From NCBI RefSeq assembly GCF_000186865.1, contig NW_008705571.1:143477-207476 (forward strand): a stretch of 64,000 nt of DNA. The letters run 5' to 3'. Shown piece by piece: positions 1,981 through 62,103 of this stretch (its first letter is position 1; every line of letters starts with the position of its first letter). Source of the DNA: Aureococcus anophagefferens (taxonomy: Eukaryota; Sar; Pelagophyceae; Pelagomonadales; Pelagomonadaceae). A program made the translations under genes and the position numbers. The notes beneath the pieces were generated by a model, which saw nothing but the letters and a program-made list of their open reading frames with translations, was not told where the DNA came from and ran no database searches.

Positions 1981-3893
1981 ATGCTGCGCATCGTCGTGTG
2001 TGTGTGCTTCGCGGCCGCGCTGGCGCGCCCGGAGCACGACCATGCGCGCCAGGAGCACGACCGTGCGCGCCAGCGGCACGACCACCGGCACGACCGCCGG
2101 CACGAGCTGCTGCCGGCGCGCTCGCGCGACGGCGTCGGCATGGCGCGCGGCTTGATCGGGCCCTGCGGCGCGGTGCGCGTGGCCTCGGCGGGCGAACAGG
2201 TCGCCGTGGAGGCGGCGGCGACACCAATAACACTCTCGAGCGCCGCGGCGCGGGACAACGGCCGCTGGCCGAGGTCGGCCGGGCCGCTGCCGCCGCGGCT
2301 CGTCGGTCCCGTCGACGCGCTCACCGTCTACTCGCCGCTCCTCGAGCTCGCGCCGTCGAGCCTGTTCCACGGCCTGCGGTCCGCCGTGCACGGGCCGCGC
2401 GCCAACGCGTCGCGCGTGCTGCTGCTCCTGCAGGACAACCCGAACAAGCGGCCGTGGGCCGACGAGGAGCTCCGCGGCGAGCGGATCCAGGTCGACGCGG
2501 GCTTCGCGCGGCAGATCGGCATCGGCAACGCGCTCGACGCCTACTCGAGCGCGTTCCTGGAGGCCGCCGCCCTGGACCGGCGCCTCATCGTCCAGGGCCG
2601 CATCTACGAGCGGCTCTGCGCGCTCGTGACCTGCGGCCTCGCCGCGGCCGCGCCGCCGGGGCCGGCGGACGACGTCGAGGACCGGAACAACTGCTGCTTC
2701 AAGTGGCACGGCGGCCGCCGCGTCGAGGACGACCTGCGGCCGGCGCTGGCGCGCGTCCTCGCGGCCCTGGGCTGCGCGATCGACGGCGCCTCGAGGAGGA
2801 GCCGCGACGACGCCGCGGGCGAGGCGCTCACGTGCGCGCGGTCCCGCGTCCCGCGACGCGCGGCGACCGGGGACGCCGGCGCGCCGCAGGCGCGATCGCG
2901 CGTCCTCCGGGACCTGCTGCCCCTCGACGGCCGCGGCGCCGTCCTCGACGCGGGCGCGGCGGCCCTCCGCGGCCGCTACGACGGCGACGGCGCGCGGTTC
3001 GCGCGCGCGCTCCTCGAGCCGCCGCGCGCGCCGCTCTTCGACGCGGCCGTGCACCTCCGGACCATCGCGTGCCCGGCGGCGTCCCGCGGCCGCGGCGCCG
3101 TCCGCGCGCGCGCGCGCGACCGGGGAGGCGGCGCGCCCGCCAGGTTCCTGGAGAAGCGCGGCAAGGCGCTCCGCGACGGCGACGGCGACTACCAGGCGGC
3201 CCGGTGGGCGTCGACGCGGGAGGCGGGCGGCGTCGTCGCGTGCCTCGTGCGCCAGCTCCGCGCGCTCGCCGTCGGCTGCGACCGCGCGGCGGCGGTCTTC
3301 GTCTCCGCGGACAACGAGCGCGCGAAGCGCGCGCTCGTCGCGGGGCTGCGCGCGGCCTTCGAGCGCGAGCCGACGCCGCACGAGGTCCGCGTCGAGGCGT
3401 TCGTCGACCTCCCGCCGGTCATGTACAAAGCCACAAAAGGGTGATTCAACGTCGCTTCAACGTGAGTGTTCCGCGCGCGCGCGTTCCGGAAAAAGCATCC
3501 ACGCTTCGAGACCGTTCCGAGAGATGATCGTTCGTCCAAAAATCAGCCGAAACGAGTGGAAAACGGCCGAGATAGGAGCCTTTGAAGTTGGGAATTTCGC
3601 ACCCTTTTGTGGCCCAGGTCATGTACCGCCACTGGATCGCGCGCGGCCCGCGGCTCCCCGAGGACTTCTGGTGGCGGCTCCTCGGCGCGACCGCGGACTG
3701 GATCTTCATGGCGCGCGCGGCGCGCGTCTACAACATCAAGGGCACCGGCGCGCGCTCGGACCAGACGCCGTCCTCGTTCTCGCGGACCGCGGGCCTCCGC
3801 GGCAACGCCTCGCTCTTCTCCCTCTTCCGCGAGGCCGCGGGCGACGGCGCGCTGCCGACGGCCTGCCAGTGGACGCGGCGGGACTTCTACTAA
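1981..3893 (+). CDS. Secreted or Golgi fucosyltransferase-like glycosyltransferase, split by an introner
   Basis: Exons 1981-3417 and 3618-3893 give 570 aa. A signal peptide (MLRIVVCVCFAAALA) is followed by a His/Arg/Asp-rich stretch. Around residues 177-205, GIGNALDAYSSAFLEAAAL matches the 'GxGNrlxxlxSAFxxA' start of fucosyltransferase-type GT-B enzymes. VFVSADNERAKRAL near residue 440 fits their 'vYvaSDd' strand. The second exon contains the C-terminal SSFSRTAGLRG, which fits the conserved Ser-Ser-Phe-Ser segment. The frame is broken by the subfamily A introner; without splicing it stops at TGA 11 codons past the junction. Removing 3418-3617 restores LPP|VMYRHW. Donor and acceptor substrates are not readable from sequence. 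The match is to the superfamily, not a named enzyme. Confidence 0.65.
3426..3617 (+). mobile_element. Introner A1 (192 bp) inside the fucosyltransferase-like gene
   Basis: The 8-bp target duplication GTCATGTA lies at 3418-3425 and 3618-3625. The terminal inverted repeats are CAAAGCCACAAAAGGGTG on the left and, reverse-complemented, CTGGGCCACAAAAGGGTG on the right. The intron 3418-3617 is 200 nt: a GT donor from the duplication and a CAG acceptor from the element end, phase 0. Orientation is sense to the host gene. The left end has drifted from CTGGGC; the acceptor end is intact. Confidence 0.92.
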
Positions 3894-3907
3894 CACGAGA
3901 GCCAGGT

Positions 3908-4149
3908 CGGCGACGTCTCTTTCGGCTTCAGCCTCGCATCAACTTGCTCGTGTTGAGTCTTGAGCGCTGGCCCGGAGCACGGGCTGGCTCACGCCTCCGC
4001 GGATCGGGCAATGTTCGCGCGCCGGACGCGGCGACGTCTCTTTCGGCTTCAGCCTCGCATCAACTTGCTCGTGTTGAGTCTTGAGCGCTGGCCCGGAGCA
4101 CGGGCTGGCTCACGCCTCCGCGGATCGGGCAATGTTCGCGCGCCGGACG
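3908..4149 (+). repeat. Exact tandem duplication, 2 x 121 bp
   Basis: Positions 3908-4028 and 4029-4149 are identical, so the duplication is recent. The unit contains the start codon region of the downstream gene: each copy carries GGGCAATGTTCGCGCGC. That gives two potential starts, at 4011 and 4132, of which only 4132 is in frame with the coding body. Confidence 0.93.
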
Positions 4150-5169: not shown

Positions 5170-5929
5170 CGTACTATGCCGGCGCGATCGCGGGCTCCCG
5201 GGCGCGGACGGGTCCCGAAACCCGGGCCCGACGGATCCAGAGCCACAACCTCCCGCGTCCTCGGGCGTCGACCGGCCCGGAGCGGCAACCCCTCGGGATG
5301 GCAGCGTGTCGCGCACGGATCTCGAGAGCCCAGTGCCGCTCCAGCCTCAGGCTGCGAGAGGTAGGGTGCCTCGTAGTCGGCGGCCTTGCGCCGCCGGCAA
5401 GCTCGGTTCGCCGAGGTATCCCGCGACCTCCCCTGGATTATTACCGTGATGCGTCTCTAAACGTAGGAGGAACCGCAGGCGGACAGCGGGCGCCGAGGGG
5501 TGTGGCGCGCGGGGCAGTTCAGGCGACGATGATGCGGCGCCGGATACCCCTAGATTGCACGTTCATTGCACTATCTTTCGAGGTCGAAGTTTGAGCTCAA
5601 CGCACGCAATCGTCTCCTTCCGCGTCCAAATATCCCCCGATTGGCTCCCGCGAGCACGCCCCTTCCCCCTCGCCGCGAGAGCCACATACTTGGTAAAAAA
5701 ATCGTTCAAAAACGACGAGTGAAAACGTGGAAACGAAAACTGGATCGAGTTCGTCGTTTCGATCTTTCACGCCCGCCCCGTGTCGACCCCCCCCTCACCC
5801 ACCACCCTCCCCCGCCCCCCACCAACACACGGCCTCCCACCTCATGGCCCGCCAACGTCGTGGTCCCTGAGCGCGACGTTGACGACGTCGAGTCGTTGAC
5901 CTCGGGTATCCAAGCGCCGAAGCGCGACC
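5170..5929. other. Intergenic stretch with no convincing gene
   Basis: Short open frames exist here, but they lack domains and start signals. From about 5640 to 5840 the base composition changes: AT-rich patches around 5695-5765 are followed by a pyrimidine (C)-rich tract at 5772-5850. The region is read as spacer leading into the minisatellite. Confidence 0.5.
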
Positions 5930-6901
5930 GGGACCCGCTCCGCTACGTCTTCGAGTCCTCGGTGCACGCCAAGCGCATGCAAGCCCGGCCTCCCACCTCG
6001 CGGCCCGCCGGCGGCGTGGTCCGCGGCGGGCACCTCGACGACGGCGAAGAGCGACTCGCTCTCGCGCGGCGCGGCCGGCGGCCGGCGCGCCGGGACCCGC
6101 TCCGCTACGTCTTCGAGTCCTCGGTGCACGCCAAGCGCATGCAAGCCCGGCCTCCCACCTCGTGGCCCGCCGGCGGCGTGGTCCGCGGCGGGCACCTCGA
6201 CGACGGCGAAGAGCGACTCGCTCTCGCGCGGCGCGGCCGGCGGCCGGCGCGCCGGGACCCGCTCCGCTACGTCTTCGAGTCCTCGGTGCACGCCAAGCGC
6301 ATGCAAGCCCGGCCTCCCACCTCGCGGCCCGCCGGCGGCGTGGTCCGCGGCGGGCACCTCGACGACGGCGAAGAGCGACTCGCTCTCGCGCGGCGCGGCC
6401 GGCGGCCGGCGCGCCGGGACCCGCTCCGCTACGTCTTCGAGTCCTCGGTGCACGCCAAGCGCATGCGAGCCCGGTCTCCCACCTCGCGGCCCGCCGGCGG
6501 CGTGGTCCGCGGCGGGCACCTCGACGACGGCGAAGAGCGACTCGCTCTTGCGCGGCGCGGCCGGCGGCCGGCGCGCCGGGACCCGCTCCGCTACGTCTTC
6601 GAGTCCTCGGTGCACTTCAAGCGCATGCGAGCCCGGCCTCCCACCTCGTGGCCCGCCGGCGGCGTGGTCCGCGGCGTGCACCTCGACGACGGCGAAGAGC
6701 GACTCGCTCTTGCGCGGCGCGGCCGGCGGCCGGCGCGCCGGGACCCGCTGCGCTACGTCTTCGAGTCCTCGGTGCACGCCAAGCGCATGCGAGCCCGGCC
6801 TCCCACCTCGCGGCCCGCCGGCGGCGTGGTCCGCGGCGGGCACCTCGACGACGGCGAAGAGCGACTCGCTCTTGCGCGGCGCGGCCGGCGGCCGGCCTCC
6901 C
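5930..6901. repeat. Minisatellite, 6 x 162 bp
   Basis: Near-identical units start at 5930, 6092, 6254, 6416, 6578 and 6740, all with an exact 162-bp period. Variation is limited to a few substitutions, for example CAAG/CGAG in AAGCGCATG(C/G)(A)AG and one GCC to TTC. Because 162 is a multiple of three, several frames stay open on both strands, including one in frame with the downstream sulfotransferase (54 residues per unit, Arg-rich). The repeat ends ~110 bp before that gene's ATG. It is either 5' flanking DNA or a poorly credible N-terminal extension. Confidence 0.92.
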
Positions 6902-7014
6902 GGCCGTCGGCGGACGTGCCTGAATGGTCTTCAACCCCTGATTCGCGCGCCTCGTCCGTCGATCGTCGCCGCGGAACCGCGTCGATTCCCCCGCAGGCAC
7001 CCGCAATCTCGACC

Positions 7015-8469
7015 ATGCACGTCATCATCCGCGCGACCGTACTTTCCTGCGCCTTCACCTTCGCCACGGCGGCGGGGGGCGTCAAGCTGGACAAGAAGCC
7101 GACCGCGGAGCCCGCGGCAAGCAAGGCCGGCCTGGTCGAGGAATCGGCATTGGTCAAGGAGCTGCCGCCGATGGTCTCGTCGGTTGTTCACGCTTTCGTC
7201 GCGACCGAGCTGTCCAAGCTCGAGCGCGAGTCCTCCAAGCTCGACGGCATCGTCGCGGGCAAGCACTCCAAGCTCGACGGCATCGTCGCGGGCGAGCACT
7301 CCAAGCCCGACGGCATCGTCGCGGGCAAGCACTCCAAGCTCGACGGCAACGTCGCCGAGCGGTCCGCGTTCGACGGCAACGTCGTCGCCGAGCGGTCCAA
7401 GCTCGACGGCATCGTCGCGGGCGAGCACTCCAAGCCCGACGGCAAGCACGTCGCGGGCGAGCACTCCAACCGCACGTCGGCCCTGTTTTTCGCGCACATT
7501 CCGAAAACGGCGGGCACGTCCGCGACGCGGTGGCTCCAAGACGCTGCTCGTCGAGCCTCGATGATGTTTGGGCACGGCGAGGTCTGTCTTCGGCCGTTTC
7601 GGTCCGTCGACGCTCTCGCCGAGACGCGGCGAACGTGGTCGTCCGCGCGCCTCGCGCCGACCCTCGAGGGCCTCCTTCGCCCCCGGCGCGGCATCGAGTC
7701 GCTCCTCGCGGCGACGATGGTCCGGTCGCCGCGGTCCCACGTCGTGTCCATGTACATGGAATGCTGCTGCTCGGACTGGGGCCGCAGGGTCGCGCCGAGA
7801 GTCCCGACGCGACCGGGGAATTGGACGGCGGGCTTTCGCGCGTGGCTCGACCATTTTGACCCCGGGACCTGGTCGCAGGGCGACTACCACTGCTACAACC
7901 CGCACAACATGCTCGCCCGCGCGCTGACCTGCGACGATCCGAGGCTCGCGACGGATTCGCGCTGCGCTTCGTGCTGCGCCGACGCCGGCGACCGGCGCGC
8001 GACGTGCTCGCATCACGCCGCCGATCGCGACGCGCTCATCCCCGACGCGACGGCCGCGGTCCGCGCGGTCCGGTTCGATCTGGGCTTCATTGGCGTCACC
8101 GAGCTCTTCACCGAGAGCCTCTGTCTTCTCGGATTCCTGCTCGACGGCGCGCTCCCGGGGAAAAGCTGCGTCGACGGCGGCGACTCCCCGATCGTCCCGC
8201 CCGACGACCGCGGCTTCGAGTTGCACCACGAGGCTCACGGCGTCCCGCCGCACGACGTCCGGGCCGTGCCCCGCGCCACCCTCGACGTCGTCGACGCCTA
8301 CACGGCGGTCGACCGCGAGGTATACCGCGCCGCGTTCACGCGTCTCGTCGCGGACCTGCGGGCCCTTGAGCGCCGCGCCGGCGTGCGTGTCTTGTCGCCG
8401 GAGCGCCTCGCCGACGCCAAGGCCGCCGTCGGCTACGTTTGGGCCGTGGACGGGTTTGAGCAGGGTTAG
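7015..8469 (+). CDS. Secreted or Golgi sulfotransferase with N-terminal repeat spacer
   Basis: This 484-aa protein has a signal peptide (MHVIIRATVLSCAFTFATAAG). Residues ~70-155 are seven ~11-residue repeats (SKLDGIVAGKH and variants) that form a stalk. The catalytic domain starts ALFFAHIPKTAGTSATRW, the PAPS-binding 5'-phosphosulfate loop. TMVRSPRSHVVSMYME fits the 3'-phosphate-binding strand and helix. Many cysteines (CCCSDW, CASCCADAGD, TCSHH) suggest disulfides in the secretory lumen. These enzymes transfer sulfate from PAPS to glycans or proteins; the acceptor is unknown. The start at 7015 is preferred because it opens the signal peptide, although the frame is open upstream through the minisatellite as far as 5566. 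Confidence 0.8.
   Translation: MHVIIRATVLSCAFTFATAAGGVKLDKKPTAEPAASKAGLVEESALVKELPPMVSSVVHAFVATELSKLERESSKLDGIVAGKHSKLDGIVAGEHSKPDGIVAGKHSKLDGNVAERSAFDGNVVAERSKLDGIVAGEHSKPDGKHVAGEHSNRTSALFFAHIPKTAGTSATRWLQDAARRASMMFGHGEVCLRPFRSVDALAETRRTWSSARLAPTLEGLLRPRRGIESLLAATMVRSPRSHVVSMYMECCCSDWGRRVAPRVPTRPGNWTAGFRAWLDHFDPGTWSQGDYHCYNPHNMLARALTCDDPRLATDSRCASCCADAGDRRATCSHHAADRDALIPDATAAVRAVRFDLGFIGVTELFTESLCLLGFLLDGALPGKSCVDGGDSPIVPPDDRGFELHHEAHGVPPHDVRAVPRATLDVVDAYTAVDREVYRAAFTRLVADLRALERRAGVRVLSPERLADAKAAVGYVWAVDGFEQG
7234..7470 (+). repeat. In-frame ~33-bp coding repeats in the sulfotransferase stalk
   Basis: Seven units of about 30-36 bp encode SKLDGIVAGKH-like peptides with alternation of Leu/Pro and Lys/Glu. 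Unit length varies in multiples of three, so copy-number change keeps the frame. Confidence 0.85.
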
Positions 8470-11691: not shown

Positions 11692-13784
11692 TTAATCGCC
11701 GTGCTTCCGGTGGGGCACGGCGTGGCGGAGCTTCCCGACGGTGAGTCGGAAGATGTCGTCGACGTCGACGTCGCCGTCGCCGTCCGCGTCGAGGCGCCCG
11801 CCGAGCTTCTTCGCGCGCTTCGCGAGGATCTTCGGCAGCTTGAGCGGCGCGCGCACGATGGCGCCGGGCAGCGCCTTGGCGAGCCGCCCGTAGATGTAGC
11901 GCCCGATGATGCCGCCGGCCTTGGTGCAGCCGAGCGCGACGACCCAGGGGACGGACTTGACGACGACGAAGACGTAGGTCTTGACCGCGACGCCCAGGCC
12001 GACGACGGCGCTCGAGGCGGCGCGGGACGCGAGCGACGGCGGCTTGCCGCTGACGCGCTGCGCCTCGCGGCGGCGGCGCACGCGGAGCACGGCCGCGAGG
12101 ACCTTGCGGAGGATCCACGGCCGCGCGAAGCGCAGCGACGCCTTGAGGCCGCGGCTCAGCTCGTAGGCCCCGAGGGCGGACCGCGTCACGACGAGGACCT
12201 CCGGGTGGCGCACCGGGCGCTCGCCCTGCTTCGGCTCGTCGAGGTGCTCCTGCCGGAGCATCAGGGCCCGCGGCGTCGCGGCGTACGCGTTCGCGAAGAC
12301 GAGCGCGCGCAGCGCGGACCGCGACCGCACGCGCCGCCGCTTGTCCGCGGCGCGGCGCTCGACGTCGTCCGCCTCGAGCCGCGCCTTGAGCCGGCGCCGC
12401 GACGCCCAGCGCACGCGCCAGCGGCGGATCGTCGCGCGGGCGCGGCGCAGGGCCGCGTGGAGCAGCGTCGAGAAGCGCCGCGTCTGCCGCTTCGCGAGCT
12501 CCTCGGGCGTCTTCGTCTCGTCGAGGCGGACCTGGCGGGACGGTCGCGCGATGCGTCGCGGTCGCTCGGCGCGCGCGCGCGGCGCCCCGCGCCCGCCCCC
12601 CCCCCCCCCCCGGGCCGGCGCGCGTCGAGCCCCGCGCGCCGGCGCGCGCCGTCGAGTACCACTCGTGGCGGTCGTCGTCGGCGGACCGGGCCAGCGCCGG
12701 CGCCGCGGACGCGACCGTGCGCTCGACGGCCGCGGCGAACGTGAGGCGGCACGCGTGCTCCGCGACGGGGAGCCGCTTCGCGAGCGCGAGCCGGCGCACG
12801 ACGAGGAAGAGGGCGACGCGCCGGAGGCCCCGCGCCGCGCGGCCCGCGGCGCTCGTCGGGTAGGGCACGGCCGCGAAGGCCGCCGTGAGCGCCGTGCTCC
12901 GGCGCACGCGCCGCTTGCCCGCGCCGAGCCGGTCGAAGAAGCGCGGGTCGCCGCCCGTGAGGCAGAGCGAGTAGAGCCGCGCGACCGTGGCGACGGCCGC
13001 GTGGGCCGCCGCCGCCTCGCCGCCGGCGGAGCGGCCGCGGAAGAGCGCGCGCGCGCCGTTGGCCGCGCGGCACAGCGACACCTGTGTGGGAATCAACCAC
13101 TGGTTTGGGGGGTCCCCACCAAACTTCGGAACTCTCTCGCTCGGTCAATTCGAAGTCGATTCGGCTGATTTTTGGACGAATCGATTGCTCTCATCGAGTT
13201 CTCGAAGCACAGCAGAAAGCCTTGCGTCGAAACGGTCGCGTACGCGCACATCGAAGTCGGGTTGAAGATTTGAGTTCCGCGCGGAGCGACGCGGCGCCGT
13301 ACTCGGGCGGCAGGCTCGACGCGTCGCGCGCGAGCCGCGCGCGCACGTCGTCCTCGAGGCGCCGCTTCACCTCGTTCTGCACGACGCGGAACTGGTCGTC
13401 GAGCGCGTCCTCCGCCTTGTCGATGGCCTGCTCCGCGGACAGGACCTCGGACTCGAGCCACGCGAGCTGCGACTCCATGAACCCGCTCGTCGACCGCCCG
13501 ACGTGCTCCCACAGCGTCTCGTTCGTCGGCACCGCGCGCTGCGCCCGCCGCCGCCGCCGCGCCGCGGCGCGCAGCCGGCGCCGGCGCCGCCAGCTCCCCA
13601 GGCGCCGCCGGAGCCGCACGGAGCGGAAGCGCAGCAGGGCCCGCGCCCGGCCGACGACGGGGAGGCGCAGCCGCCGCAGCCCGCCGAGCCGCGGGGCGAC
13701 GACGCCGGCCTTGGGCGTCGCCAGCATGCTGCACCGCCACGCCAGGAGCGCCCACAAGATCGCCGCGCGGCTGCCCGGGGCCAT
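11692..13784 (-). CDS. Unrecognised Arg-rich protein with plastid/ER-type leader; introner and frame slip
   Basis: On the minus strand, exon 1 is 13784-13293 (MAPGSRAAILWALLAWRCS leader, Arg-rich helices, then a Glu/Asp helix, LESEVLSAEQAIDKAEDALD). Introner B1 is then removed (GA|VSLCRAANG), and exon 2 runs from 13081. It holds hydrophobic and Arg-rich segments, ending with VDVDDIFRLTVGKLR after an Asp-rich DADGDGD loop that resembles one EF-hand loop. The frame changes by one at the C16 run at 12596-12611: upstream the frame reads DDDRHEWYSTARAG, downstream RQVRLDETKTPEELAKR. Both parts have the coding character of one gene, so a miscalled homopolymer is likelier than two genes. An alternative ATG lies at 13847. 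No family is recognised. Confidence 0.5.
12596..12611. other. C16 homopolymer at the frame slip
   Basis: Sixteen consecutive C (G on the coding strand) coincide with the point where the minus-strand reading frame must change. This is a likely length error in sequencing or assembly, or a true hypervariable run. Confidence 0.8.
13082..13284 (-). mobile_element. Introner B1 (203 bp)
   Basis: The target duplication is AGCGACAC (13074-13081) and AGCGACGC (13285-13292), with one mismatch. In host-gene sense the donor is GCGTCGCT (GC) and the acceptor end is CCCACACAG. The intron 13082-13292 is 211 nt, phase 0. The element is in sense orientation. Its donor-side end has drifted to CCGCGCGG. Confidence 0.9.
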
Positions 13785-16538: not shown

Positions 16539-16587
16539 GGCGCGCCGTTAGGACATATCCCGCCGGCGGGATACGTTAAACGCCGCT

Positions 16588-17933: not shown

Positions 17934-19503
17934 ATGGACGGCATCCGCGGTCCCAGCCGAAAGGGGCCGCCCGGCGCTGGGAACGCTCGCGGCCGCCCGA
18001 CGAGCGCGGAGCGCCGCACGTGCGCGGCCTGCGCGCTGTCCAAGGTCAAGTGCGACCGCGCGCTCCCGTCCTGCGGCCGCTGCGTGCGCCTCGGCCTCGC
18101 GTGCATCGACGCGCCGCCGTCGCGGCGCGGCCGCGCGGTGACGCTGGGCCCGAAGACGCTCGCGCTGCGGCAGCAGCCCGCGGGCGCGTCGATCCCGTCC
18201 CTCGGCGGCGCCGTCGACGCGACGAAGCTCATCCAGGAGGTGGCGACGCGCGGCGGCGCGCCCGCGCTCGAGCACGTCCGGGAGTGGCTGCTCGTCGCGC
18301 TCGCGCGGGGCGGAGCAGGAACAGGGGGATTCAAAGTCGCTTCAACGTGAGAGTTCCGCGCGCGATTGTTCCAGAGAAAGGATCCACGCTTCGAGAGCGC
18401 TCCGATAGATCATCGCTCGTCCAAGAATTCGCCGAAACGAGTGGAACACGACCGCGATAGGAGAAGTTGGGAATTTCGCGCTCTTTTCCCGCCCAGGCGC
18501 GCGGCTCGACGACGCTCTTCGCGCGCGCGGCGCTCATGGCCGCGCAGGCGCGCGCGCCGCTCGCCGAGGTCTTCGCCGTCGAGCCCACCTACGCGGGCGA
18601 GTTCGCCGACGTGCTGCCGCCGGGCAACCCCTTCGCCGCGCGCGCCGCGGCCGTCGGGGGGCCCGACGGCGACGCGCCGCGCGCCGCGAAGCGGCCGCGC
18701 GGCGGCGGCCCCGACGGCGGCGCGCCGCGGCGCCGCGCCGACGAGAGCACGCCGGCGCTGCGCGCCGCCGACGCCATCGCCGCGGGGTTCCCGGCGTCGC
18801 TGCCCGCGCCCGCGCGCGCGCTCGTCGGCGACTACGGATCCGCGCTCGCCAGGGCAGGAAAAGAGTGATTCAACGTCGCTTCAACGTGAGTGTTCCGCGC
18901 GCGCGCGTTTCGGAAACAGCACCCACGCTTCGAGAGCGCTCCGAGAGATGATCGCTCGTCCAAAAATCAGCCGAAACGAGCGGAAAACGACCGAGATAGG
19001 AGCCTTTGAAGTTGGGAATTTCGCACTCTTTTCCTGCCCAGGCGCTCGCGGTCGTCCGCGTCTGCGTCGACGGCGCCGTGCGCAACGTGCCGACGCCGGC
19101 CTTCGCCGCGCGCGTCTGCTCGCGGGCGGCCATGGACGCCGTCTACGCGGACAACTCGCGCGTCGTGCCGTCGCTCTACCACGGCGAGGCCGCGCTCGCG
19201 GCGACGGCCGCGGCGATCGGCCGCCTCCACGCGGGCCTCGCCGAGGCCGCGCGCGCGCGGCCGAGTGCGGCCGCGCCGCTCCACGCGACGGCCGACGGCG
19301 GCCGCACGGCGCTGCGCTGCGAGGGCGGCGCGGAGATCGCCTGCGACAGCGAGTGGGCCATGAGCTGCTACCACGGGGGACGCGTGACGGTCATCGCGAC
19401 GCTCTTCCGCGAGCTCGCGGACGGCGCGCCGGCCCTCGCGCCGCTCCTCGGCGACGCGGATTTGGAGCGGGAGCTCGCCGCGAGCCTCGTGGACTTCATC
19501 TAG
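17934..19503 (+). CDS. Zn2Cys6 (fungal-type) DNA-binding protein with two introners
   Basis: Exons 17934-18302, 18497-18841 and 19042-19503 give 391 aa. Residues 30-57 read CAACALSKVKCDRALPSCG then RCVRLGLAC. The spacing is C-x2-C-x6-C-x6-C-x2-C-x6-C, which matches the binuclear zinc cluster, with the expected Lys/Arg after Cys2. The middle exon has a low-complexity basic segment (AAKRPRGGGPDGGAPRRR), and the last exon has a folded domain (VVPSLYHGEAALAATAAAIG, SEWAMSCYHGGRVTVIATLF). Removing each introner plus one 8-bp duplicate gives VAL|ARGSTTLF and YGS|ALAVVRV, both phase 0. A transcription-factor role is inferred from the cluster; target genes are unknown. The stop lies 15 bp from the stop of the giant minus gene. 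Confidence 0.82.
18311..18496 (+). mobile_element. Introner A2 (186 bp)
   Basis: The duplication is GCGCGGGG (18303-18310) and GCGCGCGG (18497-18504), with one mismatch. The intron 18303-18496 is GC-AG, phase 0, sense. It is the most diverged A copy (CGGAGC donor-side end; core CCAAGAATTCGCCGAAACG). It also has a 6-bp deletion before the 3' inverted repeat relative to A1. Confidence 0.88.
18850..19041 (+). mobile_element. Introner A3 (192 bp)
   Basis: The perfect duplication GCGCTCGC lies at 18842-18849 and 19042-19049. The ends pair as CAGGGCAGGAAAAGAGTG and, reverse-complemented, CTGGGCAGGAAAAGAGTG. The intron 18842-19041 is GC-AG, 200 nt, phase 0, sense. Confidence 0.92.
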
Positions 19504-19518
19504 GACAACAGTAGGAAA

Positions 19519-25500: not shown

Positions 25501-28500
25501 GCAATCCTCCAGGGCCGCGTCCTCCTGCTCCTGGGCCTTGGAGCGGCTCCGCTTCTTGTCGGCCTTGCGGAGCTGCGCGCGCGCGAGGCCCCGCACGGTT
25601 GTGATCTTGCGGTCCCGGAGCACGGTCGCGAGCTCGGGCCGCCCCGCCCGCCGGCAGAGGGCCTGGGGCGCGACGCCCCACCAGGGGTCCGCGACCTCGG
25701 CCCAGAGCCAGGGAGTGGACGCGTTCGCGGGCAGCTCCGCGCGGTCCTCGACGACGTGGAGCACGGCCCCCGCGGAGCCGCAGGCCTTGAAGGAGCTCTG
25801 CTTCGAGCGCCGCGTCACGGTCACGGACCGGCGCGCGGCGAGCAACCGGAGCCGCGCGCGCGCGGCGCGCTGCATCGCCGCGGCGGCGACGGCGTAGCGC
25901 CGCGCGGCCGCGCGGACCGCGCGGAGCGCGGACCGCGTGAGCCAGCCCCGGGCCCGCGCCTGGAGCGGCGCCGCCCAGGTGTGGAGCGACCGCCGGTAGG
26001 CGTTGAGGAGCGCGAGGAGCGAGTCGCGCAGGGGCCGCGCGACGACGCGCGCGCAGAACGCGCTCTTCCGGTCCGCCTTGCGCCGCGCGACGAGGCGCCG
26101 CGCCAGCGCCGCGCGGATCTGGCGCTGGAGCACGAGGGACGCCGCCTCCTTGCGCAGGAAGGCCCGCGTGAGCTGGCCGTTGATGACGGCCTGGATCGTC
26201 GCCGCGGCCGTCTCGCGCTGCTCCGTCTCGACGGCCGTCTCCTCGGCCTCGATCTGGGCCACCGTGTGCTCGAGGTGGCGCATGAAGCGGCCCGGCCGGG
26301 CGCGCCACCAGCAGAAGGCGATCCTCCGCGCGGACGCGTGGCGGTGCCTCATGCGCGCCTTGACGAAGCACAGCATCTTCCGCCGCGCCCAGCGCTGGCG
26401 CCGCAGCGTGAGCATGAACTCGAGGGCGACGTAGCGGCGCCAGGCGCAGATGATCATCTTGCCCGCGGCGCCGCGGACGCGGCGCTGGTGCTCGAAGTAG
26501 CGCTGCTTGATCTTCTTGAGGGACCCGCGGCGCGCCCACGCGCGGATCTGCCGCGCGTAGGCCAGGTCCTCCGCGTCCGTGACCCGGAGGCACGACAGGA
26601 GCACGAAGGTCGCGAAGGCCTCGCGGTTCCGGTACCACGCGAACTGGACCTGGAGCGCCGCGCGCGTCTCGCGCGCGATCGTCCGCCGCATCGCCGCGAA
26701 GTTCTTCCGCGCCATGGCCCCCCGCAGGTAGCGCTGGAGCGTCCGCGGCGCGACGATGGCATCCTCGATGGCCGCCCGGAATTTCGCGAGCGCCGCGCCC
26801 GCGCGGCAGCGGCCGAGGTGGCCCCGCATGTAGCGGCCGACCGTGTGCGTCGCGACGCGCGTGCGGAGGAACGGCCGCCGCGCGAGGAACATGTGGGCCG
26901 ACGCCTCGATGCAGATCGCCGACGCGCGCATGAGCAAATAATGCTGGCGCACGGGCCACATGCGGTAGAGCGCCACGAAGAGCGTGCTCGCGCGCCGCGC
27001 GTCGACGTAGTAGCCGCGCCACGCGTTGCGCCGCTGCCGCGTCTGGATCTCGATGGCCGCGGCCCAGAGCTCGCGCCGCTCCGCGCGGACCCGCGCGTCG
27101 AGGCTGAAGGCCACGGCGTCGAGGTGGCCGCGCTCGCCGTCGAGCTCGATGTCCGCGTACGCGCCGCCGACGGGCTTCGCGTCGTGGCGCGCGACGAACA
27201 AACTGCGCTCGCCTGTGCCGAATTCAAATCTTCAAATCGACTTCAATGTGAGCGTATTCGAATGTTTTGACACAAGAATTTTCACTGTGCTTCGAGAACT
27301 CGATGAGAGAAAACGATCCGTTCAAAAATCAGCCAAATCGACTTCGATTTGACCGAGCTAGAGAATTCTGAAGTTTGGTCAGGACCACCCAAACCAGTGG
27401 TTGAATTCGGCACAGGCGCTCGCGCGCGCGGCGGTAGCAGGTCTGGATCTTGAGCGTGTTCGTCATGCGGTCGTAGAAGATCATCCAGCCCGTGCGCGAC
27501 ACCCAGCGCATGATGCACCGCGTCACGCCGCGGCGCCGGCACCGCGCGAGGAACGACGCCAGCTTGCACGCGCCGCCGAACTGGCGGTACTCCAGGCGCC
27601 TCTGGTCGCGGTCCCGCTCGTGGAGCGCGACGCGCCAGAGCACCAGCGCCGCCGTCAGCTGGGCCTTCTCGAACTCCTCGACCCAGCGCCCCAGGATCGC
27701 CGCGAGGCGGCCGCGCACCGTCGCCGTCGACGCGAGCGACCCGCCGAAGGAGCCCGCCACCAGACGCAGGGGCAGCGCCCGCACCTGGGCGTCGATGCGC
27801 TCGTGGGCCTCCCGCCGCAGGCTCGACTCGATCTTCGCCTCGGCCTCCAGCAGGCTCGCGGACGCGGCCGCGACGCGGCCCATGTCGCCGTCGGCGGCCG
27901 CGAGCGACCCGTCGTCGTCCGTCGCGTCGCCGTCGGCGCCCCAGGCGACGCTGGGCACGACGGGCCCGCCCTTGAGGATCGCGCGCTTCCGCGCGGACCG
28001 CCAGGCCTCCTTGGCCTCGTCCGCGGCCCGGCGCCGCCGCGACCGCGCGTCCTTGCGGTCCGCGCGCGCGGACGCGATGGCGCGCCGCGCGCGGGGCTGG
28101 CGCGGCGTCACGACTAAAGCCGCGCCGAGGCGCCCCTCGGCCGTCGCGGCGCGCTCGACGCGCGCGCGCTCCGCCTCGACGCCGCCGTAGAGGTCCACGG
28201 CCGCGGGCAAGGCGCCGCCGTGGACGCCGCCGCGCGCGTCGCGCGCGCGCGGCGTCGTCGGCTCGTGGTGGCTCGGCCGGCCGAGGGGCGTGCGCCGCGC
28301 CTCGCGCGCGCTGTAGCTGTCCCAGCCGCCGACGAGCGGCGGCGTCATGCCCTCGCGGCTCAGGCCGTCTCGCGCCGACGCGGACGCGGACCAGAGGCTC
28401 GTGCCCGCGACCGCGTCGCCGCCGAGGTCGTGGGCCGTCCGCGGCCGCGCGCCGTGGCGCGGCGACCAGGCGACGGCCTTGGACACCGTCGACGCCTCGA

Positions 28501-39609: not shown

Positions 39610-39617
39610 CAGTGGCT

Positions 39618-40754: not shown

Positions 40755-43700
40755 ATGCACCTCACGGAGGACGTGGTCAAGCGTCTGTGCAAGACGGATC
40801 CGGCGACGGTCGAGCACTTCCACATCCACTGGGTCCACGTCGACCGCGTGCGGCCGACGAGCCTGCTGCGGTGCCAGTGCCTCGTGAGCCTGTGCCTGAG
40901 CCACGCGGACCTGCTGAAGATCGAGGGCAAGGTGCTGGGCCGCTGCGTGAACCTGTGGTGGGTGGACCTGAGCCACAACCGGCTCGCCGGGGACGCGCTC
41001 GCGACGTCGGGCATCGACGAGTTCAGCGCGCTGGGCGCGCTCGACCTCGGGCACAACGCGCTGGGCCCCGAGTCGCTGGCCCCCGCGTCGGAGATCGAGG
41101 TCGTGCGCCTGACGTTGGCGGGCAACGCGGGCCTCGGCGCCGGCGACGACTCGTACCGGCGCACGGCGCTCCAGCGCGCGCCCGCCGCGTGGGTTCTAGA
41201 CGACCACTTCGTGACGGCCGCGGAGGCCGCGAGCGCCGTCGAGGCCCACGAGGCCGCCGCGGCGCTGGAGCGCAAGACGTCGCCGCCGGCGTCGCCGACG
41301 TCGCCGACGATTCTAGAGAAGCGGACGCTCGCGACGCTCGGCGACGGCGACTGGAACGAGGCGTCCGCCGGCGACACGGCGACGAAGAAGCATCTCGCGC
41401 GGCACCGGCGCGTGCTCGCGAACCAGCCCGCGCGGCCGTTTTTGAGGGATCAGTACCGGCTGAAGAATCTGGTCGTCGAGTACGAGACGCGGTGCGCCGC
41501 GCTCAAGTCGTGGGCGTCCGCGGAGCCGCGCGACGGCCGGAGGACCGGGCCGCGGCGGCCGCCGAACACGCGGCGCGCGGAGCTCTGCGGCCTGCCGACG
41601 CGGGCGCGGCTCGACGCCTGCGTGCTCCTCTGGGCGTCCCTCCAGTTCGCGCCGCTGCCGGCGGCCATGTACAAGGAGGCGCTGACGATCCTGCTCGCGC
41701 CGCACGCGGGCGTCGGCGCCGTCGGCGACGTCGCGGCGCTGCCGCCCTTCGTGCGCAGCGGCCTCGTCGCGCTCCTGCGGGAGCAGAACGCGGCGGACGC
41801 CGAGGCGAGGCCGGGGGAGCTCAACGACCTCGAGCGCGACCTCGCGGCCGCGGTGCCCGCCGTCGCCGTCTGCACCCGCGTGGAGATCAACCGCTGGTTT
41901 GGGGGGTCCCGACCAAACTTTGAAATCCTCTAGCGCGGCCAAATCGAAGTCGATTCGGCCGATCTTTGGACGAATCGATCGCTCTCGTCGAGTTCTCGAA
42001 GCAGAGCGAAAGAGTCTGGTTCATTCTTTTAAGCGCACATTGACGTCGGGCTGAAGATGTGAGGTTCCGCGCAGGTCTGCACCGACGGCGGCGAGCCGCT
42101 CGGCGCGCGCCTGGGCCTCGGCGACCGGCGGCGCCTCGCCGCCGCGGCGCGCCACGCCGTCATCCTGCTGAGCCGCGCGCCGTCGTGCCCGTCCCTCGTC
42201 ACGCGCCAGACGTCGTCGAAGCAGCAGCGGGCCTACGACAGCATCGGCCACCTGCTGGCCGCCGCGGGCATGACGTTCGACGAGCTCGACCGGGACTCGG
42301 ACAGCGCGGAGGCGAACGTGGACAACCCGGCGCGGCCCTACGCGCGGCGCTGGGCGCCGCCGGAGCCCCCCGCGGCGCTCGACGCGTCCGCGTCCGCGTC
42401 GCCGAGCGCGACGATCGCCGAGGGCGACGACGACGACGCGACGACCGCGTCCCAGCGCGCGCTCGTCGCGGGCGTGACGGGCCCGCCGGCGGACCTGCAC
42501 CGGCTCCGGAGGCCGCGGCCCGGCGAGCACGTGGAGATCCTGGAGAACGTCTTCGTGATTTTAGTGGACGTCGCGGCCGACGGGTCGCGGTGCCGCGCGG
42601 CGCCCTACGGCGGCGACGCGGTCCTCGAGCGCGGCGACCTCTGGTGGGACCCGCGGGGCTGGTGGCGCCACGCCCGGGCCGCGGCGGAGCAGGCCGAGCT
42701 CTTCCGCGCGGGCGCGCGGAGCCGGCTGCACCGCGCGCACCGCGGCGCGCACCGGAGCGGCCGCGCGTGCGCGTCCGGCGTGCTCAACGCGCCCGTGCCC
42801 GCCGCGGCGCTGCCGCCGGCGCGGGGCGGCGTCGTGTCCCTCTTCTCCGCCGACGCGGCGCTGGACCCGGCCTTCGTCGTCGCGCCGCCCGCGGCCATCG
42901 CGACGCAGAACGCGTACGGCCGCGCGCCGTCCGCGTCCTGGGCCCGGCTCCAGGCTGTGTGGAAATCAAATCTTCAACCCGACTTCAATGTTAGTGTACG
43001 CGACCGTTTCGACGCAAGGCTTTCTGCTGTGCTTCGAGAACTCGACGAGAGCAATCGATCCGTCCAAAAATCAGCCGAATCGACTTCGATTTGACCGAGC
43101 TAGAGAATTCTGAAGTTTGGTCAGGACCCCCCAAACCAGTGGTTGATTTCCACACAGCCTCCAGGACGCGCCCTGCGTCACGCTCGCGGCCCAGCCGCGG
43201 CCGGCGACGAGCGCCGCGACGCACCGCGCGGGCGCCTGGCGCCCGGCGCCCGCGCCCGCGCCCGCGGCGCCGCCGCCCGCGCGACCGTCCGGCGCGTCGG
43301 CGGGCTCGCTCCGGTCCCGGGACCCCGGCGACGACGCGCGCGCGTGGGACGCGCTCGAGCGGGAGCTGGGCCACTTCCGCGCGGAGAACACGACGACGCG
43401 CCACCTCTGGTACCGGGACCACGAGCGCGCGATGCGCCTCGCGGCGCGCCGCGCGCTCGCCGGAGGCCGCGGCGGCGCGACGACCGTCGCGACCAGGGAC
43501 ACGCGCGGCTCCGACACGTTCAACCTCACGCAGCTCTTCGACGACGCCGCCGCGGGCATCGAGGACGACCCGGGCACGGGCTCGCTCCAGGTGAGCGAGG
43601 GCGAGCCGCCGCCGCCGACGGGCGACCCGACGTCGACGCTCTACACGACGCCGACGTTCTCGGGGTCCTACAGCGTGCCGACGCTCGCCGGCGAGGAGAT

Positions 43701-50978: not shown

Positions 50979-51144
50979 GACCTCCACCGTCACGGCCGCC
51001 GACGCGTGCGGCCAAAAATCACGCGGCCAGCCTTGCTCGGGCAGCCCGAGAAGGCATAGAAAACGCCGGATCGTTGGCGGCAACAATAACCTGTAACGCC
51101 ACGACTCGGCGTACCGCGCCGCCGCCGCCGACGACGCGACCACG

Positions 51145-51543: not shown

Positions 51544-51548
51544 TGCGC

Positions 51549-55592: not shown

Positions 55593-55875
55593 TGGTTTCT
55601 GCAGCTACGAGTGCATCCCACTATATGCTTGCACCCATCATCGTCATCACTTTGTTGTTTTTTTATGAAAAAAGCATTCTTGCACTTAGATGCTCGTCGC
55701 TTGGTCGCGGGCGCTCTTCGGGGGGAGTTGACTGTCCGCTCAGCTAGATCTAGAACGGCTGCCTGCGAGTCGCCTGCGAGCGCTCACTCAAATAGGCAGT
55801 TAAAGAGAGAGGCCCGGCGCTTATCAAACAAACTTCCACGGAACAGACGATCTGGAAGCCCGGACATGATCCTGC

Positions 55876-57027: not shown

Positions 57028-57319
57028 CGCGTCACCTGGCTTAGCAATGAAACAAGCGAGTTGTGGTGCTGGGTGCGATGCCACCGCACGAGGTGCGTTG
57101 CCACCGCACGTCGTCCACGACGATGACTCGTCCCTGGGCGCCGAAGTAGATTTGTCAAAGTGCAATATGAAGTTCAAGGAGGCGCTGTTGGACGCATTCC
57201 TCCCCGATGTCCGCCGCCCGCGGCCTTCGAGGAGCCGCCGTCGGACGACGACCTCGAGGCGCAGAAGGGCGGGATTACTACTGGGCATAGTAATCATACA
57301 TACGAGAATCCAGCTCTTC

Positions 57320-57850: not shown

Positions 57851-58129
57851 CTTCGTGTTGCGCAGTGACGCGATCCGCCGCAGCGTTGGCGACTCCTTCA
57901 GATTGTAACGCGATCTGCCGCAGCGGCGACTCAGTGCCGTCGTGTCTCACGATTTGTCCATGCTCTCAGTGGCAACGATGCAGTGATCGCTAAAGGAAAG
58001 GTTTTGCGAATTAGCAAAGTGCAGCCCCGCATTCATAGAGCTAGCGCCGACACCAGCCGCTCTCTCTCGGTGCTCTCGCTCGCCCGACTCGCTGGCCGGA
58101 AGAGCAACCCGAAGAGCAGCACCCCGACC

Positions 58130-59631
58130 ATGGGCGCCGGGGCGACGACCCTGAGCAAGGACGAGGCCAAGGCGGCGGCGCCGGGCGCGGGCGTGGCCGA
58201 GTTCGACGATGCGGCCTGGGAGTCGCTGGAGAAGGACGCCGAGGGCAAGGTGAGCTGCGAGACGCTCAAGGGCGTGGCGAGCAAGTACGCGGCGGCGCCC
58301 GCCGAGCCCGCGAAGCCCGCGGAACCGCCGGCAACGACGGCAACACCCGCGGAGCCGGCGCCGGCCGACGCGCCGTCGGACGCGGCGTCGAGCGTCCCCG
58401 CCAAGTACCTGCACCCGGACCACCCCGGGAACGCGGAGAAGATCGAGCACCTCGCGCCCGGCGGCTTCGCGACGGGCTCCTTCGCGCAGTCGTTGCAGGC
58501 GCCCGAGAGCCTCGCGGCGGCGGAGAAGGTGCTCTTCAAGCTGCACCAGGTGCTGAGCCACGAGGGCGACAACGCCATCAGCGGCTTCGGCGAGACCTAC
58601 GCGGCGCCGACGGTCAACTACCACACCATGTTCAAGGCCGTGGACCTCGACGGGAACCGGCAGATCGAGCGCGACGAATGGAACAAGGTCATGCGCCGCG
58701 TGCTCTGCCTCAAGGGCGCGGAGCTGAGCGACGACGAGCTCATGGCCGTCTACGACGCCGTCGACGACAACCACAACGGCACCATCAGCCTCCAGGAGTT
58801 CGCGGCCTTCGCGCGCGGCGGGCGGTGGACGTCGCCGCACCACCACCAGGGCCACGTGCGGAACCGCGCCGAATTCAAATCTTCAACTCGACTTCAATTG
58901 TGAGCGTACGCGGCCGTTTCGACGCAACTTCTTCGGCTTTGCTTCGAGAACTCGACGAGAGCAATCGGTTCTTCCAAAAATCAGCCGAATCGACATCGAT
59001 TTGACCGAGCTCGAGAATTCTGAAGTTTGGTCAGGACCACCCGAACCAGTGGTTGAATTCGGCACAGGTGCGGAACACGTCCTGGGGCCTCGTCGGCGGC
59101 TTCGGCGGCGGCCACGACGACGGCACGGCGACGGGCACCTACGGCAGCGGCGAGGTCACGGAGGACATGCCCCACTACAGCGACAAGAAGGTCACGCAGA
59201 AGGCGCGGTCGTCGAAGGTCGCCGAGCCGGCCGGCCTCGACGCGATCCACCTCGTGCTCTACCACCTCACGCAGGAGATCGCCAAAGAGAAGGGCAGCCG
59301 CGTGTCGGGCATCCACAAGCACCCGGCGAAGGTCAACTACCACGACATGTTCAAGAAGCTCGACATCGACCACAACAACCGCGTCACGCGCGAGAACTTC
59401 GCGCTCGTGCTCCGACGGCAGGTCGGCGTCGGGGCCCACGTCACCGACGCCGACCTCGCCCTCATCTTCACGGAGATGGACACGGACAAGAGCGGGGCCC
59501 TCTCCTTCTCCGAGTTCGCGGCCTACTGCAAGGGCGCGGCGACGCCGACGATCGCGCGCGGCCTCGCCTACGAGGCGGAGAAGAAGAGTCGGGCGCCGAG
59601 CTCCGCGCCCGCGCCCGCGCCGTCGTCATAA
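58130..59631 (+). CDS. Four-EF-hand calcium-binding protein, split by an introner between its two halves
   Basis: Exons 58130-58855 and 59068-59631 give 429 aa. The EF-hands are VDLDGNRQIERDEW, VDDNHNGTISLQEF, LDIDHNNRVTRENF and MDTDKSGALSFSEF, each with acidic residues at loop positions 1, 3, 5 and 12 or near equivalents. The two halves are internal duplicates: TVNYHTMFKAVD and KVNYHDMFKKLD, each preceded by a Leu-rich helix. MGAGATTLSK could be myristoylated. The N-terminal Ala/Pro linker is disordered. B5 is removed exactly at HQGH|VRNTSWG, phase 0. A calcium-signalling role is inferred. Stops with the next gene are 12 bp apart. Confidence 0.85.
58864..59067 (+). mobile_element. Introner B5 (204 bp)
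   Basis: The perfect duplication GTGCGGAA lies at 58856-58863 and 59068-59075. The intron 58856-59067 is GT-AG, 212 nt, phase 0, sense. The acceptor end GAATTCGGCACAG is intact. The donor-side end CCGCGCC has drifted. Confidence 0.93.
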
Positions 59632-59643
59632 GCCTCGGAGACA

Positions 59644-62103
59644 TTAGAACCAGCCCCGCTCCTCCTGCTGCTGGCGGAGGCGCCGCGCGTTCGCGCGAAA
59701 GTCCGCCGCGGCGCACTCGAGGCCCGCGGCCTTGTCGTTGAGCTGCTCGAGCTGCTCGCCGCGCTTCTGGAGCGCCTCCATGCCCTCGGCCAGCGCCCCG
59801 GCGGGGTTGTCACGCCGCGCCGCGGGCGGCGGCGGCGGCGCGGGCGGCGGCGCGGGCGCGCGCGCCGCGCGCCGCTTGTTGAAGCAGGCGTCGCAGCTTC
59901 GCAGCATTTCGGCGACGCCGCCCTCCTTCAAGCTCCTCCGGCGCCGCGCGGCGTTCGCCGCCGCGCGCGCGCCCGTCGTCGGCCCCGCGTCCGGCGGCGG
60001 CGGCGCGCGGAGGTGGCATTTCTTCGAGGAGCAGGCGCCGCAGCAGAGGATGCCGCAGAAGCGGCAGTGGTGCCGCCGGTGCACGAGCGTGAAGTGGAAG
60101 TCGCAGAGGAGGCACTTGGGCGACGCCGCGTCGTCGGTCCAGGCGTGCGCGGGCGCCGCGGCCGGCGGCGCGTCGGACTCCGCGGGCGCGAGCGCGGCCC
60201 AGGCGGCGCGCTCCGCGGCGAAGGCGCCGCGCGCGCTCGGCCGCGCGCCGCCGCGGACCAGGGCCGCCGCCGCCGCGGCGTTGGCGCCCGCCGCGTCGAG
60301 GGGCGTGCGGCCGTCGCGGCCGACGGCGTTGGGCCGCGCGCCCGCGGCGAGCAGCGCGGCGACCGTCGCCTCGTCGCCGTTGGCCGCCGCGCGGTGGAGC
60401 GGCGCGTGCCCCGCGTCGTCGGCCTCGTTCGGGTCGCGGCCGAGGTCGCGGCAGAGCATCTCGCAGGCGCGCGCGTGGCCCCGGGCCGCGGCGGCGCCCA
60501 GGGCCGTCTCGCCGCCGGCCGCGGCGTCGTCGGCGCCGCCCGCCTCCAGCAGCGCGCGCAGCGCCGCGGCCGCGGGCGACCCCGGCGGCGCGTGCTCGCA
60601 GACCCGCGACGCCGCGAGCGCGAAGAAGGGCGTGCGCCCCCGCGCGTCGCGCGCGCGCGCGTCCGCGCCCGCGGTGAGGAGCGCGGCGATCGCCGGCCGG
60701 TGGCCGAACGCCGCGGCGACCTGTGCCGGAATCAACCACTGGTTTGGGACGTCCCGACCAAACTTTGAAATTCTCTCGCTCGGTCACATCGAAGTCGATT
60801 CGGCTGATTTTTGAACTGATCGATTGCTCTCATCGAGTTCTCGAAGCACAGCGGAAATGTTTGTGTCAAAACGGTCGCATACGCGCACATTGAAGTCGGG
60901 TTGAAGATTTGATTCGCACACAGGCGGCGACGTGCAGCGGCGCGGCGCCGCGGAAGTCCGCCGCGTCGCCCGTGGCGCCCGGCGGCGGCGACGCGGCCGC
61001 GCCCGCGTCGGCGCCCGCGTCGACGAGCGACCGCACGGCCCTCGCGTCGCCCGCGTAGGCCGCGTAGTGGAGCGGCGCGAAGCCGTCGCCGTCGCGCGCG
61101 TCCAAATCGTCCGCGGCCTTCAACAGCGCGGGCAGCGCGCCCGCGGCGCCGAGGAAGCAGGCGGACCAGAGCGTGCCGCGCATCTTCTCGTGGCGCCAGC
61201 CGATGGTCGCGGCGCCGCCGGCGTCGAGCTCCCGCGCGACGCCGAGGAACGCGGCGGCGACGTGCCGGAGCCAGCCTGGGCAGCAAAAGGGTGATTCAAC
61301 GTCGCTTCAATGTGAGTGTTCCGCGCGCGCGCGTTCCGGAAAAAGCATCCACGCTTCGAGACCGTTCCGAGAGATGATCGCTCGTCCAAAAATCAGCCGA
61401 AACGAGTGGAAAATGGCCGAGATATGAGGCTTTGAAGTTGGGAATTTCGCTCTCTTGTCCTGCCCTGGAGCCAGCCGTCGAGGTCCGCCGCGTCCGCGGC
61501 CAGGAAGCGGAAGCTCCGCGCCGTCGTGCCGATCTCGAAGCAGGGCTTCGCGTGGCTCGCGGCCAGGTCCCACCGGAGGTCCTCGACGTAGAGCACGTCG
61601 GCCCAGGGCACGCACTGCTTCGCGAGCAGCGGGCACGTCCCGTCGTCGTCGTCGTCCGTCGCGGACGACGCGCCGCTGCCGCGCCACCAGCCGTGCTTCT
61701 CGCCGTCGGCGCGCGTCGCCACGATGAGGGCGTCGTTCAGCACGAAGACCTCGCGCGCGTGCTCGCGCTTGAACGTCGCCTCCGTGCCGACCTTTTGCAG
61801 GCAGCCGCCGTGGACGACGCGCCGCATGCGCTCCTCGGGCAGCGCCGCGCCGCCGCCGGCGAGGGCGTCGCCCGCCTCCAGGCGGGCGAAGAGCGCCTCG
61901 ACCCGGTCGAGCTCCGCGGGGCTCGCCATGACCTGGAGGCCGGTGGTGACGGGCACGGCGGACTCGCGCACGTCGGCCTCCAGCATGGCGGCGACGAGCG
62001 CCGCGTCGAGGTCGTCGTCGTCGTCGTCGTTCGCGGCGTGGTGGTGCGCGAGATATTGCTCCGCGGCCTTGGCCCCGGTCACCGAGGACGCGCGGTCGTC
62101 CAT
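59644..62103 (-). CDS. PH - ankyrin - FYVE - R-SNARE-like protein with two introners
   Basis: The minus-strand exons are 62103-61476, 61275-60932 and 60720-59644 (682 aa). Exon 1 holds a PH domain (GGCLQKVGTEATFKREHAREVFVLNDALIV as two strands; FEIGTTARSFRFLAADAADL; closing Trp in DGWL). Exons 2-3 have ~6 ankyrin units (FAPLHYAAYAGDARAV, GHAPLHRAAANGDEATVAA). Residues ~526-556 are a FYVE finger (CLLCDFHFTLVHRRHHCRFC, then GILCCGACSS) with the RRHHCR PtdIns3P motif. The last ~45 residues (MEALQKRGEQLEQLNDKAA, then DFRANARRL) match an R-SNARE coil, without a membrane anchor. Removing A4 and B6 gives LDG|WLRHVAA and PLH|VAAAFGHR. An endosomal membrane role is inferred. Start 62103; a further ATG lies at 62172. 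Confidence 0.85.
60721..60923 (-). mobile_element. Introner B6 (203 bp)
   Basis: The perfect duplication GCGGCGAC lies at 60713-60720 and 60924-60931. In host sense the donor is GTCGCCGC and the acceptor end is GATTCCGGCACAG. The intron 60721-60931 is GT-AG, 211 nt, phase 0, sense. Both ends keep CTGTG, suggesting youth. Confidence 0.93.
61276..61467 (+). mobile_element. Introner A4 (192 bp), antisense to its host
   Basis: The perfect duplication GAGCCAGC lies at 61268-61275 and 61468-61475. In host sense the donor is GCTGGCTC and the acceptor end is TTTTGCTGCCCAG. The intron 61276-61475 is GC-AG, 200 nt, phase 1. The element is sense on plus, the host on minus, so the opposite terminal repeat serves as acceptor compared with A1-A3. 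Confidence 0.92.

Follow-up and report, generated by a model that had tools for sequence, protein, structure and literature searches.

Ten introners of two related families in a 64,000-nt window of the Aureococcus anophagefferens genome

Elements in the window

The window, that is, the whole 64,000-nt stretch of DNA of the brown-tide alga A. anophagefferens that was analysed, contains ten elements of two related families (A and B) spread over seven genes. An earlier note on this DNA had listed ten elements of 186-204 bp in seven genes; all of them were located, and nhmmer searches with a single copy of either family as the query returned the same ten places and nothing further in the window (E-values within one family from 1e-34 to 1e-53). 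The elements are summarized below, where each entry spans the element and both copies of its duplication. Junctions are written a|b, where a closes one exon and b opens the next, and are cited by a in the text.

3418..3625, + strand: Introner 1, family A, body in gene sense; 192-bp element (3426-3617) between duplicates 3418-3425 and 3618-3625; phase-0 intron at 3418-3617 with a GT donor
13074..13292, - strand: Introner 2, family B; 203-bp element (13082-13284) between duplicates 13285-13292 and 13074-13081, which differ at one base; intron of uncertain phase (0 or 2) with a GC donor
18303..18504, + strand: Introner 3, family A; 186-bp element (18311-18496) between duplicates 18303-18310 and 18497-18504, which differ at one base; phase-0 intron with a GC donor, junction gapless against homologues
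18842..19049, + strand: Introner 4, family A; 192-bp element (18850-19041) between identical duplicates 18842-18849 and 19042-19049; phase-0 intron with a GC donor, junction gapless against homologues
27205..27423, - strand: Introner 5, family B, body inverted relative to gene; 203-bp element (27213-27415) between identical duplicates 27416-27423 and 27205-27212; phase-1 intron with a GC donor
41868..42082, + strand: Introner 6, family B, body inverted relative to gene; 199-bp element (41876-42074) between identical duplicates 41868-41875 and 42075-42082; phase-0 intron with a GT donor
42947..43165, + strand: Introner 7, family B; 203-bp element (42955-43157) between duplicates 42947-42954 and 43158-43165, which differ at the first base; phase-2 intron with a GC donor
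58856..59075, + strand: Introner 8, family B; 204-bp element (58864-59067) between identical duplicates 58856-58863 and 59068-59075; phase-0 intron with a GT donor, in the gene of an EF-hand protein (match SO694_00017349)
60713..60931, - strand: Introner 9, family B; 203-bp element (60721-60923) between identical duplicates 60924-60931 and 60713-60720; phase-0 intron with a GT donor, junction inside a weak Ank_3 match
61268..61475, - strand: Introner 10, family A, body inverted relative to gene; 192-bp element (61276-61467) between identical duplicates 61468-61475 and 61268-61275; phase-1 intron with a GC donor

The 8-bp target duplication that the earlier note assigned to every element is present at all ten, although it is exact at only seven and has a single mismatch at three (13293, 18302 and 42946). 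Terminal inverted repeats are likewise present, but their attribution to each element was slightly generous, as they are imperfect in several copies (e.g. 18302, 13293 and 41867). Rfam and tRNA scans of the window gave no match. A search for a third introner family by all-against-all BLAST of the window and 24 stretches from elsewhere in the genome, with families A and B masked, gave three matches, none of them in the window; the search was confined to matches 60 bases or longer with a GC content no higher than 68%.

Splice layout and encoded proteins

In all ten copies the acceptor CAG is the end of the element and the donor dinucleotide is the opening of the duplication (GT in four and GC in six), exactly as had been claimed. 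Read in the frame of the gene, the unspliced intron has at least one stop in all ten cases, and at 13293 stops occur in every frame. An open frame after removal is weak evidence by itself, because wrong frames are often open too in DNA of 73% GC.

The claim that deleting the element with one duplicate restores the protein was borne out at three of the ten junctions (18302, 18841 and 58855), those compared with clean homologues, where exact removal gave a gapless protein; the relatives in the database for 60932 and 61476 are not clean. The spliced EF-hand product (junction 58855) is identical to the annotated A. anophagefferens protein SO694_00017349 except for 2 of 429 residues, and a second gene shares long identical stretches with SO694_00017353 and JL722_11943. 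The residues at junction 60932 fall within the weak Ank_3 match (residues 342-369). The database protein P0002 has 17 residues in common with one frame of the Introner 10 element, so that Introner 10 is carried by another strain too. No relative of P0055 was found in viral contigs.

These features almost certainly identify the elements as introners, short non-autonomous MITE-like DNA transposons that are spliced as introns. Insertion would duplicate 8 bp of the target, the end of the transposon would furnish the acceptor CAG, and the opening dinucleotide of the duplication would become the donor where it reads GT or GC on the strand of the gene; the spliceosome would then take out the element with one duplicate and leave the mRNA unchanged. 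Both the splicing of the RNA and the supply of a transposase in trans are inferred. Splicing might instead use other sites and leave a remnant of the element in the mRNA, for instance at a GTGAGT-like motif that lies about 36 bases into the sense-oriented family-A body, and the available text of PMC9860276 reports that another Aureococcus sp. introner family adds 12 bases. However, the homologues have no extra residues at 18302 and 18841 (family A) or at 58855 (family B), and copies with an inverted body have, by eye, no such motif near the donor, so that we consider this alternative very improbable.

Copies elsewhere in the genome and the mode of insertion

Twenty-four stretches of 10 kb (240 kb in all), picked without gene models, contain 31 copies, or about 6,300 by extrapolation to the genome. 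Exact matches to the end patterns, sought because the earlier note had proposed a search for further copies, number 1,187 for family A and 606 for family B, which agrees with the introner reading. From the copies used below we omitted those at edges (L075 and one family-B copy each in L008 and L026) and duplicates (L001 and L029, prior to the search, and L038, L039 and L081). The duplication is exact in 73 of 86 family-A and 15 of 22 family-B copies (88/108 overall). The mean identity of the terminal inverted repeats is 0.917 in family A (positions 3-18, 72 copies), in which position 2 differs between the ends in every copy, and 0.877 in family B (15 positions, 20 copies). The set of 72 excludes the 13 of 86 family-A copies that are not 192 bp long, plus one of the 73 that are.

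If these were ordinary MITE insertions, which break genes or are retained in RNA, the layout of donor and acceptor would be a matter of chance, and GY does occur at about 21% of window positions. Yet GY opens the duplication on the acceptor strand in all ten window copies and in 81 of the 83 family-A copies that have an acceptor at one end (the exceptions are L054 and L079), as against 24 of 83 on the opposite strand; together with the continuity of coding with homologues at the three sites, this leaves the ordinary-MITE explanation with scarcely any probability. There is no donor consensus past GY. Outside the 83 copies, L024 and L091 obey the strand rule once a 9-bp duplication is assumed for them, and L017 is degenerate.

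Copying of introns through RNA by reverse splicing, rather than DNA transposition, would fit the observation that nearly all intact copies are intron-like (96 of 100 with a duplication matching at least 7 of 8 bases). But exact 8-bp duplications and inverted repeats are not expected from RNA copying, nor is a body that can lie either way round with respect to the splice layout (36 of the 72 copies each way), and we regard such an origin as highly unlikely. The reading of the earlier note, transposons acting as introns, is thus supported by duplications, inverted repeats, exact removal, copies throughout the genome and bodies in both orientations relative to the gene.

Searches for a transposase gave no match to PF10551, PF12762 or PF12017, nor to the hAT profiles PF05699 and PF14372; for PF12017 and the hAT profiles the control genomes were equally silent. 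Four matches to PF13359 (Harbinger type) were set aside because the Harbinger-type duplication is 3 bp. The introners share the 8-bp duplication with hAT-type DNA transposons, and the donor-side end of family A (CAGGG) resembles hAT ends, but the ends of family B (CTGTG) do not fit.

Introners of A. anophagefferens were reportedly described by Huff, Zilberman and Roy in 2016 (Nature) as short non-autonomous DNA transposons with inverted repeats and a target duplication; they are said to carry one splice site and co-opt the other, with nucleosome-like spacing. The elements in the window come from the same species and have the same anatomy and splice layout, and no result here contradicts that description. 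The finding is an already known mechanism and mostly not new: the earlier note took the ten cases as direct evidence of the mechanism, with which they agree, but since the DNA is that of A. anophagefferens itself and the mechanism is published, they add copies to that case and are no first proof. Among introners of other lineages, some families carry the 5' site or add codons, according to the available text of PMC9860276, and the window families do neither. The introner elements of Amoebophrya, as far as the available text of PMC7789003 describes them, are alike in having pairing inverted repeats in each intron and direct repeats at its boundaries, whereas their splice motifs and repeat sequences vary widely, against GY...CAG and two families here. 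The 28 distances between neighbouring insertions fit a 167-bp period (an equal fit in 0 of 5,000 uniform draws), as expected from the preference of introner insertions for linkers given in the available text of PMC9860276.

Acceptor lineages and coupled repeat ends in family A

Family A comprises two lineages that share one body but differ in which of its ends bears the acceptor, and the acceptor is never at both; the standard-length copies (n = 72) are divided equally between them. On the body tree the acceptor-end label needs 9 changes, against 24.5 in shuffles (minimum 18), and the arrangement of the two labels as two clades was not rejected (AU; P = 0.093). In family A a T never faces the acceptor A, and thus the full hairpin never covers the AG. 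When 76 family-A copies were folded with 20 flanking bases, the pairing probability of the acceptor A was 0.15, rising to 0.97 if the facing base was T; in 18 family-B copies folded likewise it was 0.68, and T is at both ends in 14 of 20. A general rule that the acceptor AG must stay unpaired was rejected on the value for family B. Such a requirement is possible for family A alone, and the descent of two lineages is the simpler account.

The two ends of a copy agree with each other at repeat site 9 in 64 of 72 family-A copies and at site 11 in 61 of 72, while sites 15 and 17 show no coupling. Among nearest body relatives the agreement is about 53% at site 9 (chance 50%) and 58-67% at site 11 (chance about 50%), and the two sites, only 2 bases apart, are nearly unlinked. 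As descent alone would link neighbours first, this may point to templating of one end by the other, as on a fold-back strand, or to selection favouring ends that match or pair. Subfamily structure as the only source of the covariation is opposed by the fact that nearest body relatives do not share site 9. The reading that an introner's two ends change jointly at individual sites without the body following, and that the acceptor had separate origins at the opposite ends of a single body, is tentative and, on balance, somewhat improbable. Against it, matched site 9 needs 16 changes on the body tree versus 21.7 in shuffles (minimum 15), matched site 11 needs 15 versus 20.4 (minimum 14), and 5'-end site 9 in all 72 copies needs 17 versus 24.3 (minimum 18 of 300 shuffles), so that both sites carry some body-tree signal. 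Furthermore, site 11's 3' partner has 0.30 bit in common with a neighbour inside its own repeat, and several body pairs share equal or more information (up to 0.69 bit). A few master copies whose two ends, though not their bodies, are different would mimic the coupling and may be its source. Both details, the pair of acceptor lineages and the coupling between repeat sites, may already form part of the 2016 Aureococcus description.

Introners are the clearest case of bulk intron gain by genomes. Duplication and spliceable layout occur together in 25 of the 30 non-edge copies of the 10-kb sample, suggesting that unspliceable insertions are removed or avoided. Should the end coupling and both acceptor lineages be borne out across every copy, they would show how the end of a transposon becomes a splice site and what keeps both ends alike.

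Introner positions, families and predicted splice junctions

The positions that the earlier note gave for ten introners were all borne out by a sequence check and by nhmmer, and the elements fall into two families, A (four elements) and B (six), which are distantly alike (between-family E values of 1e-6 to 1e-10).

Introner elements (window positions)
3426-3617, family A
13082-13284, family B
18311-18496, family A
18850-19041, family A
27213-27415, family B, body inverted relative to the gene
41876-42074, family B, body inverted relative to the gene
42955-43157, family B
58864-59067, family B
60721-60923, family B
61276-61467, family A, body inverted relative to the gene

The acceptor CAG is the last three bases of the element in all ten cases, as had been described, and the 8-bp duplication is exact in seven and has one mismatch in three. 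The predicted donors are GC (six) and GT (four), and the intron phase is 0 at six sites, 1 at two, 2 at one and uncertain at 13293 (sites are named by the last exon base before the junction). By eye, the likely coding frame of the gene at 11694-13366, minus strand, seems to shift further downstream of the 13293 junction, which may reflect another intron or an assembly error. The window also has a run of 50 N (assembly gap) at 16134-16183, two identical adjacent copies of a 121-base unit at 3908-4149, immediately downstream of the gene carrying the first introner, and long in-gene tandem arrays at 5766-7037, 9896-10385 and 32251-32997 (periods of 162, 60 and 15 bases).

Since open frames are common in DNA of 73% GC, protein continuity after removal of an element is by itself weak evidence. 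Comparison with homologues, which covered five of the ten junctions, upheld the claimed continuity at 18302, 18841 and 58855. The protein spliced at 18302 and 18841 has no gap at either junction against the database protein P0055 and five other aligned relatives, except that P0056 has extra residues upstream at 18841. Likewise, the EF-hand protein spliced at 58855 has no gap against P0050, P0051 and P0052, and equals A. anophagefferens SO694_00017349 except for 2 of 429 residues. The ankyrin-FYVE protein with sites 60932 and 61476 has long stretches identical to SO694_00017353 (P0002) and JL722_11943. At 60932 the joined residues belong to a weak Ank_3 match that spans residues 342-369, and neither of these two database models is clean there; at 61476 one database model agrees on the acceptor side only. 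SO694_00017353 runs into the element at 61476 (window 61276-61475) as coding sequence and has 17 residues in common with one element frame, indicating that another strain carries the introner; this gene model looks wrong there. Introners may be misread by automatic gene models.

Copies and spacing in the genome

Further copies were expected genome-wide, and in the 49.05 Mb searched (86 contigs) the exact end patterns gave 1,187 matches for family A and 606 for family B, against 0 for the reversed pattern. Twenty-four 10-kb stretches, placed at fixed coordinates of 8 contigs, contained 31 copies, of which 15 were A and 16 were B, or one per 7.7 kb, giving about 6,300 copies if this density holds over 49 Mb. 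Of the 30 non-edge copies in these stretches, 25 combine the duplication with the splice layout. Matches to PF13359 (Harbinger-type transposase) were seen in open frames at G000:C1:1844908-1845419, C6:2536846-2537241 and C34:12456-12965.

The 229 known positions include 28 neighbouring pairs whose pre-insertion distance is below 1,100 bp. These distances fit a 167-bp period, with a mean cosine of 0.66 that 0 of 5,000 uniform draws reached; the window supplies three of them (344, 345 and 872). This spacing agrees with the introner preference for nucleosome linkers published in PMC9860276.

Strand rule and acceptor lineages

Whether an end reads CAG outward is determined by repeat position 2 (T for CAG). 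T is at exactly one end in 83 of 86 family A copies and at both ends in none. GY opens the duplication in 81 of these 83 on the strand of the T end, against 24 on the other strand; the exceptions are L054 and L079. The L079 copy (102-292, family A) has an exact duplication and would yield a GA donor; GA donors are reported for some introners in PMC9860276. In the 94 orientable copies, all of which were selected for GY, the donor is GC 53 times and GT 41 times, compared with a GC share of 76% among the GC and GT dinucleotides of the window, and duplication positions 3 to 8 showed no consensus. T occurs at both ends in 14 of the 20 family B copies whose duplication matches at 7 or more of 8 positions, so family B could be spliced in either direction.

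Family A includes 72 copies that are 192 bp long and have T at a single end; the median divergence of their bodies is 6.4% between pairs and 3.8% from the majority base. Their acceptor is at the 3' end of the body in 36 and at the 5' end in 36, and this label requires 9 changes on the body tree versus 24.5 in shuffles (minimum 18), indicating that the two acceptor types are lineages. A simple history would have A at both ends in the ancestor, with T then gained once at either end; CAGGG resembles hAT ends.

Coupling between the two ends

In the same 72 copies, the two ends of a copy agree at repeat site 9 (C or G, about 1:1) in 64 and at site 11 (A or C, 1:1 to 2:1) in 61. The information shared by site 9 and its partner is 0.50 bit, and no other column shares more than 0.15 bit with site 9. 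For site 11 the corresponding values are 0.45 and 0.17 bit, although the partner of site 11 shares 0.30 bit with a neighbouring column of the repeat in which that partner lies. No coupling between ends was found at sites 15 and 17 in family A copies. Family B has the same tendency: in 20 copies the end identity is 0.877, whereas shuffles give 0.779 and reach 0.84 at most.

A few master copies differing at both ends and not in the body would give such coupling. Nearest body relatives (median 4 differences in 156) are alike in 53-54% of cases at site 9 and in 58-67% at site 11, where chance is about 50%, and for the 69 pairs whose bodies differ at no more than 3 positions the agreement is 51% and 61%, respectively; the body tree carries some signal for both sites. 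Coupled ends would equally result if one end served as template for the other in a folded strand, if selection favoured pairing in RNA, or if transposition needed like ends.

The mechanism read from these introners is the one reportedly published for A. anophagefferens in 2016. PMC9860276, PMC7789003 and PMC9481584 report that mechanism, and in the portions covered of the literature on introner orientation and repeat homogenisation no report of coupled ends was noticed, which does not show that the coupling is unpublished.
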